DNA of 64,000 nucleotides from Mucilaginibacter sp. L3T2-6 (GTDB taxonomy: Bacteria; Bacteroidota; Bacteroidia; Sphingobacteriales; Sphingobacteriaceae), in the NCBI RefSeq assembly GCF_030519355.1, contig NZ_JAUMKC010000002.1, positions 310,001 through 374,000 of the forward strand, given 5' to 3'. Shown one piece after another: positions 33,999 through 43,968 of this stretch (position 1 is the first letter of the stretch; the number at the start of each line of letters is the position of its first letter). The position numbers and the translations under genes were made by a program. The notes under the pieces were generated by a model. That model saw only the letters and a program-made list of their open reading frames with translations, was not told where the DNA came from and searched no databases.

Positions 33999-34028
33999 GG
34001 CTTTTAATTTTAATGTTCTTTAATCCCG

Positions 34029-34099
34029 AGGTCGAAAGCGGATTCGAACCGCTGTAGGAGGTTTTGCAGACCTCTGCCTAGCCACTCGGCCATTCGACC
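34029..34099 (-). tRNA. tRNA-Cys (GCA)
   Basis: Read on the minus strand, GGTCGAA pairs with TTCGACC (7-bp acceptor, U73). The D stem is GCC/GGC, the anticodon stem GAGGT/ACCTC with loop CTGCAAA (anticodon GCA), and the T arm AGCGG-TTCGAAT-CCGCT. It is 71 nt and CCA is not encoded. Confidence 0.95.
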
Positions 34100-42703: not shown

Positions 42704-42864
42704 ATCTTCATCAACAGCAATGGTGAGCATTGTGTTTGATTGCGATCCGGTTAAATCTTATCATTTTGAATTTTGTTTGAAAATTATTTGCTTGATTAAT
42801 AGTCAATTACGAAAATTGACAACTATAATTATATAATGTCTATAGGAATTATAGATTTTATATG

Positions 42865-42872
42865 TATGTTTG
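42865..42872 (+). promoter_or_regulatory. -7 box TATGTTTG ahead of the SAM riboswitch
   Basis: TATGTTTG matches TAnnTTTG, 27 nt before the first riboswitch base. Transcription would begin near 42878. Confidence 0.6.
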
Positions 42873-42899
42873 CATCAACAAAATCGTTCTTTTATTTCG

Positions 42900-43078
42900 C
42901 TTATCCAGAAAGACCGAGGGAAAAGGCCCTGTGACGTCTTGGCAACCTGTAGTGAAAGTATATACATTCAAAAGCCGAAACTAAGAAGGTGAAATCTCTT
43001 AGGTAGGGCTGTTGAATGAAACTTAACACACAACACAAGGTGCTAATTCCTGCTCCGTTTAACGCGGAGAAAGATAGG
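42900..43078 (+). promoter_or_regulatory. SAM-I (S-box) riboswitch, apparently orphan
   Basis: P1 is CTTATC (42900-42905) pairing with GATAGG (43073-43078). The conserved core follows: GAGGGAAAAGGCCC, TGTGACGTC, TTGGCAACCTG, and on the 3' side GGTGCTAATTCCTGC with a small hairpin CTCCGTTTAACGCGGAG. Between them a long P3-type extension pairs CATTCAA (42965-42971) with TTGAATG (43012-43018), AGCC with GGCT, and CTAAGA with TCTTAG. These are the hallmarks of the SAM-I family, which senses S-adenosylmethionine and normally controls Met/Cys genes. No open reading frame follows on this strand; the next element is a tRNA-Cys-like sequence at 43135. The 3' expression platform is not obvious. Confidence 0.92.
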
Positions 43079-43134
43079 TATTCAACCGTTTCCCCGGTCT
43101 CCCTGGTAAGTGATTAAATAGTTTTTTTCTATAA

Positions 43135-43205
43135 TGTCGCGTGACCGAGAGGATAGGCTGGGGCCTGCAAAACCCTACACGGCAGTTCGAATCTGCCCGC
43201 GACGT
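43135..43205 (+). tRNA. tRNA-Cys (GCA)-like gene, possibly degenerate
   Basis: A 71-nt cloverleaf can be drawn: acceptor TGTCGCG/CGCGACG with U73, D arm ACC-GAGAGGATA-GGC, anticodon arm GGGGC-CTGCAAA-ACCCT (anticodon GCA), T arm GGCAG-TTCGAAT-CTGCC. Compared with the canonical tRNA-Cys at 34029-34099 it has an A-C mismatch in the D stem, a C-A mismatch closing the anticodon loop and U1-G72 at the acceptor end. It lies 57 nt after the riboswitch, behind a TTTTTTTCT tract. It may be a second functional tRNA-Cys, a pseudogene or a tRNA-like element. Confidence 0.72.
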
Positions 43206-43214
43206 CTGGTTGGG

Positions 43215-43236
43215 TCTTTAGTCCGGAGGCTAAAGT
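43215..43236 (+). terminator. hairpin after the tRNA-Cys-like gene
   Basis: TCTTTAG pairs with CTAAAGT-like sequence (43216-43221 with 43230-43235). There is no strong T tract, so it may be only a processing or attenuating hairpin. Confidence 0.4.
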
Positions 43237-43251
43237 CTAAGTTATAAATCA

Positions 43252-43968
43252 CTACAACTCCTCAAACACATCATCCATCCACCTTTCGGCGATATTTTCG
43301 AGGGCGGTTTTTAATTCTTCAGCCCATTGGGCCGATATGTATTCCAGGTCTTTTTTTTCGTAACGTTTTTCAACCATACGAAAGCTATCTTTTTTATACA
43401 ACGCTACATCGATGGGGAAGTCGACGTTATTTGAGCTTACCCTGGTTGAATCGAAAGATAAGAAGCCTGTTTTAAGACCTAACCGCAAGCTCGAATTTTC
43501 ATCGATAATGCGGTTCAGAATAGGTTTACCGTGACCTGCATTCCCGATAATAATGTAAGGCGCACCGTGGCCAAGTTCAACCCAGTTGCCTTCGGGGTAC
43601 AATAAAAACAGCTTATGTTCCTCGTCGCCGGCAAGTTGTCCGCCTATAATCGTGTTCAGGTCGAATTTAAAACCCGCCCTTTCCAGCGTGGCGCGGTCTT
43701 CCTCTGCTACACGCTTAACCTGTGCGCCGAAGGCGTTTACCGCCTGGTAGAGTTTATTATAATGCTCCTTTTCAAGCTGTTCATTAAAATAAATAATCGC
43801 CTTGTCTCTTATGGAGCGCAGACCACTGGTCATGATAAAGAGCGAGCCGCCGTCTTTTTGTGCCACCGTGATCTTCTTTTTTACGGTGGTATCGATACCT
43901 GACGTTATACGTGTATCAGCAAGCGCAACCAGCCCTTCTTTAACTTTTATCCCTAAACAATAAGTCAT
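43252..43968 (-). CDS. Anbu-type proteasome-related peptidase
   Basis: The 238-residue protein begins MTYCLGIKVKEGLVALADTRITSG, the N-terminus of Anbu (bacterial proteasome homologue), with Thr2 as the expected catalytic nucleophile after Met removal. ISSDTRVSS-like FLSFDSTRVSSNNVDFPIDV and KKKITV follow the same fold. Anbu forms helical or ring-like self-compartmentalised peptidases of unclear function. Its usual partners (transglutaminase, alpha-E, and an ATP-grasp protein) are not beside it. The YdcF gene ends only 3 bp upstream, so the two form an operon. Confidence 0.85.
   Translation of the reverse strand: MTYCLGIKVKEGLVALADTRITSGIDTTVKKKITVAQKDGGSLFIMTSGLRSIRDKAIIYFNEQLEKEHYNKLYQAVNAFGAQVKRVAEEDRATLERAGFKFDLNTIIGGQLAGDEEHKLFLLYPEGNWVELGHGAPYIIIGNAGHGKPILNRIIDENSSLRLGLKTGFLSFDSTRVSSNNVDFPIDVALYKKDSFRMVEKRYEKKDLEYISAQWAEELKTALENIAERWMDDVFEEL

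Follow-up and report, generated by a model that had tools for sequence, protein, structure and literature searches.

SAM-I (S-box) riboswitches usually control protein genes of methionine or cysteine metabolism, and the strand that changes its pairing partner is usually the 3' strand of helix P1. The locus described here resembles these elements in that it comprises a complete RF00162 aptamer above the gathering score, its own promoter and a predicted alternative pairing of a P1 strand, but it differs in that its probable target is a tRNA gene and in that the 5' strand of P1 is predicted to swap. The antisense SAM riboswitch of the ubiG operon in Clostridium acetobutylicum likewise has no protein gene directly downstream on its own strand, whereas the present S-box is followed by a conserved tRNA, without conservation of the gene beyond it (PMC9943018, available in part). 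The tRNA in question shares cloverleaf, GCA anticodon and U73 with bacterial tRNA-Cys(GCA), but represents a variant with A.G or A.A at position 1-72 in 121 of 126 distinct sequences (U.G in the present copy), which exists as a second copy beside the canonical gene and either has a riboswitch leader or is placed inside runs of genes. Initiator tRNA-fMet carries C.A at 1-72 and three G-C pairs at 29-41, 30-40 and 31-39. The variant does not fulfil the latter criterion, as 31-39 is U-A in 117 of the 126 sequences, and it is further set apart by its cysteine anticodon and discriminator and by A.G at 1-72. What both have in common is the conserved unpaired 1-72, which marks the initiator and serves formylation there (PMC9976931 and PMC11004401, as far as the accessible portions state). 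The non-proteinogenic tRNA-Gly of Staphylococcus aureus provides a precedent for escape from EF-Tu and, like it, the variant is a tRNA paralog that possibly avoids this factor; however, tRNA-Gly is altered at 49-65 and 51-63, whereas the variant tRNA-Cys is standard at these positions (49-65 is G-C in 122/126 and 51-63 is paired in 98%) and altered at 1-72, and no consuming enzyme is known for it (PMC9976931, from the portion at hand). A pairing of a SAM riboswitch with tRNA-Cys was not found described in the open-licence papers searched, subscription papers being outside the search, and neither was any riboswitch with a tRNA gene as target, including the available parts of PMC3766115, PMC2211319, PMC2494555 and PMC8632094.

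The window, i.e. the whole stretch of 64,000 nucleotides of Mucilaginibacter DNA that was analysed, contains the following elements:

42865-42872, plus strand: -7 promoter element TATGTTTG (TAnnTTTG), recognised by sequence.
42890-42924, plus strand: 5' flank of the S-box with the 5' strand of P1 and the 5' side of P2, for which pairing with 43088-43119 is possible.
42898-43080, plus strand: aptamer of the SAM-I (S-box) riboswitch (RF00162), one arm of which carries a long insertion.
43088-43119, plus strand: leader segment complementary to the 5' half of the S-box, including a mimic of the P1 3' strand, GGTAAGTG, at 43105-43112 (by folding).
43122-43128, plus strand: run of seven T just upstream of the tRNA (by sequence).
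43135-43206, plus strand: second tRNA-Cys(GCA), a member of the A1.G72 mismatch family, here with U1.G72 (cmscan, ARAGORN and family tRNA model R1).
34028-34099, minus strand: canonical tRNA-Cys(GCA) with G1-C72, the comparison copy outside the unit (cmscan, ARAGORN).

A first-pass annotation of this DNA had read the region as an S-box with its own promoter, followed by a tRNA-Cys(GCA)-like gene and no protein gene, and had proposed to check the S-box against Rfam. Indeed, cmscan detected RF00162 at 42898-43080 on the plus strand with 70.4 bits (E 2e-14; gathering score 44.4 bits) over the full model (1-108), which satisfies the aptamer criterion of this riboswitch class. Three S-boxes were matched in the whole genome (E <= 0.001), and the remaining two stand ahead of methionine genes, which by their protein families we take to be metY (after a metB-like gene) and metH. 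The tRNA gene was detected by cmscan at 43135-43205 on the plus strand (RF00005, 35.3 bits; gathering score 29) as well as by ARAGORN at 43135-43206, and reached 93.0 bits with model R1; possessing a cloverleaf above the cut-off, the GCA anticodon and also U73, it meets the criterion for tRNA-Cys. No open reading frame of at least 60 aa was present on the plus strand between the S-box and the Anbu gene on the opposite strand, as the annotation had held. The Anbu-like protein encoded at 43252-43968 matches the Pfam family Proteasome (PF00227) with 21.9 bits, just under the cut-off of 22.4. Between the tRNA and this convergent gene, at 43216-43235, there is a hairpin, CTTTAGTCCGGAGGCTAAAG, without a T-run on the plus strand, which is possibly a shared terminator of both genes; it was absent from the output of the terminator scan. 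Two features had escaped the first-pass annotation, namely the mismatch at 1-72 and the existence of a separate, canonical tRNA-Cys at 34028-34099 on the minus strand.

The same neighbourhood was sought in relatives. BLAST with 42860-43260 produced matches in 44 of 60 relatives, some comprising S-box and tRNA and many the S-box core alone. A search pattern for the variant (the A1 pattern) matched at 110 places in 94 of 149 Mucilaginibacter genomes, and the reversed control pattern gave 0 matches. Counts refer to 100 copies from 94 genomes, namely 98 of these places (12 were left out), the window's own copy, which has U1 and is not among the A1-pattern matches, and one further R1 match. An S-box core on the same strand, detected by regular expression, was present upstream of 74 of the 100 copies; one or more copies of this kind occur in 72 of the 94 genomes. 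The direct form, with the S-box immediately upstream of the tRNA, accounts for 44 copies. The S-box lies ~830-970 nt upstream in 22 copies, all of which have a member of the 1-Cys peroxiredoxin cluster just before the tRNA, and ~1250-1310 nt upstream in five, where a desulfurase-like class-V aminotransferase gene precedes the tRNA in each case; three copies have it at ~290-300 nt and a DsbD_N protein after the tRNA (3/3). By the regular expression no S-box was found upstream of the other 26, including L078, which has a peroxiredoxin gene and is located at a contig end. SAM control is not essential to the variant tRNA, because of these 26 copies without a detected S-box. Results of cmscan agreed with the regular expression in 20 loci (17 with an S-box; L012, L015 and L025 without) and in a second set of 20, in which only L120 gave a SAM match.

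Among the 41 unique direct loci (40 from Mucilaginibacter and one from Hufsiella), the GGTGC core starts 82-97 nt ahead of the tRNA, and TAnnTTTG, the -7 consensus of Bacteroidota, precedes the aptamer in 41/41, at 21-37 nt before the TTATC of P1; in random 70-nt stretches from the same loci the motif occurs in 3.1%. As judged by sequence comparison, the pairing of S-box and tRNA-Cys is above chance, because it recurs in dozens of genomes at a nearly fixed spacing and with this promoter element throughout. The A1 pattern matched six of 395 genomes from the class, all of them Mucilaginibacter. Among 301 genomes of the family, R1 reached >=91 bits in at least six from outside this genus (G172, G196, G211, G220, G223 and G351). 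A scan of named genomes yielded at least 120 tRNA stretches, with any S-box upstream in 36 of the 120 matches listed. The 80 titled matches listed derive from Mucilaginibacter, Pedobacter, Sediminibacterium, other Chitinophagaceae, Hufsiella, Desertivirga, Cnuella and a few others, some being metagenome bins whose titles may be wrong; among them, a non-Mucilaginibacter S-box upstream was seen only in L167 (Hufsiella, 96 nt), L189 (Pedobacter, 2452 nt) and L190 ('Bacteroidetes bacterium'). In L137, L140, L155, L189, L205 and L236, of which the four titled ones are Pedobacter, an S-box core is located 137-158 nt downstream of the tRNA on the same strand. When stretches of 9-20 kb were searched for distant S-boxes, L264 had one 8.5 kb upstream with opposite-strand genes in between, and none was among the matches listed on the tRNA's strand for L265-L273, L275 and L276. 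When the adjacent transglutaminase was placed in a tree (31 rows, four without S-box), two changes resulted, which does not exclude a single origin and, at the level of these sequences, leaves gain versus loss of the S-box undecided.

Four loci without an S-box match (L012, L072, L089 and L110) carry TAnnTTTG 26-27 nt before the tRNA, and their leaders contain TAGTTTT as in the direct form. Since these relatives retain the promoter directly before the tRNA, the tRNA appears to be the product of the S-box promoter; and since the element is present in them and in all direct loci, the promoter goes with the tRNA whether or not a riboswitch is present. The own promoter that had been proposed for the S-box (TATGTTTG at 42865-42872) is backed by comparison, and the coupling of SAM sensing to a cysteine tRNA, the leading idea of the first-pass annotation, gains support from the conserved neighbourhood and from the promoter in S-box-less relatives. 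In L015 a short hairpin, GCTTAGCCGG...CCGGTAAGTGG, takes the place of the S-box upstream of the tRNA, which would fit excision of the aptamer with part of the competing helix left behind. A separate promoter within the T-run was considered and rejected, as the G of TAnnTTTG is absent from the direct leaders, judged by eye. Taken together, we regard it as probable that S-box and tRNA-Cys form one transcription unit, in which the riboswitch acts on transcription and thereby sets the amount of a second, dedicated tRNA-Cys, albeit no data on expression, ligand binding or charging are at hand. The order of this putative unit would be promoter, SAM-I aptamer, switching leader and tRNA.

The segment preceding the tRNA matches, imperfectly, the reverse complement of the S-box 5' half. 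The duplex of 42890-42924 with 43088-43119 was calculated at -34.4 kcal/mol versus -13.5 +/- 3.4 when the spacer was replaced by 200 single-base shuffled versions (z -6.2), and the ligand-free minimum free energy (MFE) structure of 42876-43134 contains this alternative helix (-78.5 kcal/mol; -58.0 with P1 forced). For the 41 direct leaders, ligand-free MFE folding returned the alternative fold in 31, another fold in 10 and the P1 fold in none. By duplex z these loci divide into 14 at <= -3, 13 between -3 and -1, and 14 at > -1, the last group including L008, L011, L014, L036, L037, L039, L041, L052, L066, L069 and L120 and also loci within L060-L063 where tested. Support for the competing helix is therefore uneven: in these models it is strong in the window and weak in a third of the relatives. 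Complements are also found after other S-boxes (median z -1.5 for 44 others, including three direct-type duplicates, versus -1.0 for the 41 direct loci; 150-nt windows, 40 shuffles), and because similar complements follow S-boxes of protein genes, the helix is not specific to tRNA control. The longest T-run within the 16 nt before the tRNA measures 4-9 nt across the 41 direct loci, compared to <=3 nt in 84 of 102 loci without an S-box and 0-4 nt in the peroxiredoxin type. Between GATA and AAGTG the leader contains 35% C and 12% G; Rho-loading sites are C-rich and G-poor. The metH leader of the same genome reads GATAAGCATTAATTTTTT, i.e. it combines a P1-strand mimic with a T-run. A metH-like leader in L003 displays S-box, second GATAAGC copy, T-run and start codon, in the layout seen before the tRNA.

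According to the folding predictions, in the absence of SAM the P1 5' strand would leave the aptamer and pair instead with the element shortly ahead of the tRNA that mimics the P1 3' strand. Since there is no start codon to be masked in a tRNA, we infer that control would be exerted by termination or by 5' processing. We lean slightly towards SAM turning the tRNA off, perhaps via Rho, because mimic and T-run recur at the metH S-box of this genome; this assignment rests on analogy and does not exclude the opposite polarity. In the latter case, the SAM-free S-box 5' half and the leader would constitute a long intrinsic terminator at the T-run, and SAM would permit transcription of the tRNA when sulfur is plentiful. 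This polarity would agree with the 20.5 kcal/mol advantage of the alternative fold over the P1-forced fold in the window, with the lack of a strong hairpin before the T-run once P1 is forced there, with T-runs of 4-9 nt as a hallmark of the direct type and with a predicted helix that abuts the T-run in L005, L048, L071, L075, L079 and L084. However, we consider it the less likely of the two: in many direct loci, including the window's MFE structure, the helix does not abut the T-run, some direct loci have TTTT only, leaders without an S-box retain a T-run of 4-5 nt, and metH, which is preceded by the same mimic and T-run, should be silenced when SAM is abundant. Two further explanations, both raised in the first-pass annotation, dispense with control of the tRNA altogether. 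If the S-box were a relic that has lost its protein target, with the tRNA as an unrelated neighbour, one could point to the 27 of 100 copies in which a protein gene does lie between S-box and tRNA (22 peroxiredoxin, five desulfurase-like). Yet the direct form recurs in 44 copies at nearly constant spacing, promoter, leader and tRNA also occur together without the S-box, and a Met/Cys gene after the S-box in relatives that is disrupted here, which would have refuted the coupling, was not encountered, the tRNA still being present in the 27 copies with an intervening gene; such conservation makes a relic scarcely credible. An antisense riboswitch directed against the convergent Anbu/transglutaminase operon has a counterpart in described antisense-acting SAM riboswitches (PMC9943018, accessible portion), and the next open reading frame is indeed on the opposite strand in 35 of the 44 direct loci, 19 next genes encoding a transglutaminase and two an Anbu protease. 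But the next gene belongs to other families in 23 of the 44 and is on the same strand in nine, so that a conserved convergent target is lacking, and the conserved parts are the tRNA and its leader; we deem this explanation very improbable.

In favour of a dedicated tRNA regulated by the S-box, the tRNA itself has features of a separate family. It is identical to the canonical copy at 52 of 72 positions; the two lie ~9 kb apart in the window and ~10-11 kb apart in several direct-form relatives (G023:C1, G033:C3 and G171:C1). In 9 of 20 loci from relatives the variant scored below the Rfam gathering score, yet was called by ARAGORN, and the comparison indicates that the low score is a trait of a conserved variant family. 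Position 1-72 is A.G in 105, A.A in 16, A-U in three and U.G in two of the 126 distinct sequences, i.e. unpaired in 121, so the Watson-Crick pair of an elongator is missing in these as in the U1.G72 copy of the window. The housekeeping tRNA-Cys of the genus, by comparison, has G1-C72 and U73 in 20/20 copies, which were hand-picked from R1 matches near 85 bits. With regard to selection of the sequences, the search pattern for L124-L243 fixed A1 and left position 72 free, and R1 was trained mostly on A1 sequences without a pair assigned at 1-72. Of the 126 sequences, >=94% form the acceptor pairs 2-71 to 7-66 and >=98% the T stem, U73 is kept in 125, and two-sided changes with pairing retained above shuffles were observed at 3-70, 5-68, 6-67, 50-64, 51-63 and 52-62. 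Pair 28-42 is formed in 86%, and 27-43 in 70% versus 65% in shuffles; 13-22 is G.A in all 126 and also in the window's canonical copy. Apart from the U1.G72 wobble, the window copy has mismatches A10.C25 and C31.A39, which recur in 6 and 7 of the 126, respectively. In a smaller set (22 sequences, 19 distinct rows) covariation exceeded 500 shuffles (0/500) and slid controls, and for further pair types 4/500 shuffles were obtained. These comparisons show the variant to be under selection as a tRNA and to be a distinct paralog family separate from housekeeping tRNA-Cys. Decay was rejected, given the retained stem pairs, U73 and GCA anticodon and the two-sided pair changes. L018 contains tandem A1 tRNA-Cys copies (1501-1572 and 1622-1693) behind one S-box and a peroxiredoxin gene.

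Each of 12 genomes has one cysteinyl-tRNA synthetase (CysRS) over the cut-off; a second CysRS as partner of the variant was not found in them, the two weak matches in G016 and G172 lying below the cut-off. In initiator tRNA the 1-72 mismatch also weakens binding of EF-Tu. For cysteine identity in E. coli and yeast, U73 and the GCA anticodon are the major determinants (PMC9976931, in the part available), and because both are kept and there is one CysRS per genome, we infer that the variant is charged with cysteine by this single enzyme. Other copies of the variant adjoin sulfur or thiol genes (1-Cys peroxiredoxin, DsbD_N, class-V aminotransferase, siroheme/TauE, FeS assembly, Cys/Met metabolism), which applies to several copies outside the direct type, but many lack such neighbours. 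At 11 loci without a detected S-box (L026, L058 with PF00578, L061, L081, L082, L087, L093, L098 and L106-L108) the tRNA is located 56-167 nt after an AhpC-TSA-like gene. L264-L266 and L268-L273 have an A1.G72 tRNA-Cys 11-55 nt after the preceding gene and no near S-box, in gene runs that presumably comprise SusC, SusD (and a cyanophycinase-like gene), the tRNA and a membrane protein.

From the precedent for EF-Tu escape, the 1-72 mismatch and the thiol/sulfur neighbours of several copies we infer, without having shown it, a Cys-tRNA that is tied to the sulfur economy and in part kept out of elongation. That the mismatch weakens use by EF-Tu, and that a Cys-tRNA pool tied to sulfur status has a role outside elongation, is inferred from the mismatch and is a plausible proposal that falls somewhat short of an even chance. 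An ordinary supplementary elongator, held in reserve and supplied according to sulfur status, with a mismatch that is tolerated or tunes charging or decoding, remains possible, although we rate the prospects of this view as modest. Its anticodon, U73, most stem pairs and the single CysRS in 12/12 genomes would suit such a role; on the other hand, the mismatch is kept in 121 of 126 sequences while 3-70, 5-68 and 6-67 vary on both sides and stay paired, all 20 housekeeping copies have G-C at 1-72, and mere tolerance should allow some reversion to a standard pair, of which only 3/126 (A-U) were seen. Carried further, the idea of a non-elongating Cys-tRNA would mean that Sphingobacteriaceae and some Chitinophagaceae possess a translation-excluded Cys-tRNA (A1.G72) for sulfur metabolism, e.g. 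as cysteine donor or sensor, which in Mucilaginibacter is set by a SAM riboswitch whose sole target is a non-ribosomal tRNA; this wider picture is more tentative still. The conserved 1-72 mismatch defines a subfamily of tRNA-Cys whose users, if not the ribosome, are still to be identified. If the proposed transcription unit is right, its untranslated target would offer a clean system for isolating the transcriptional action of Bacteroidota S-boxes, and a metabolite riboswitch would directly control a tRNA gene, linking methionine/SAM status to the supply of Cys-tRNA.
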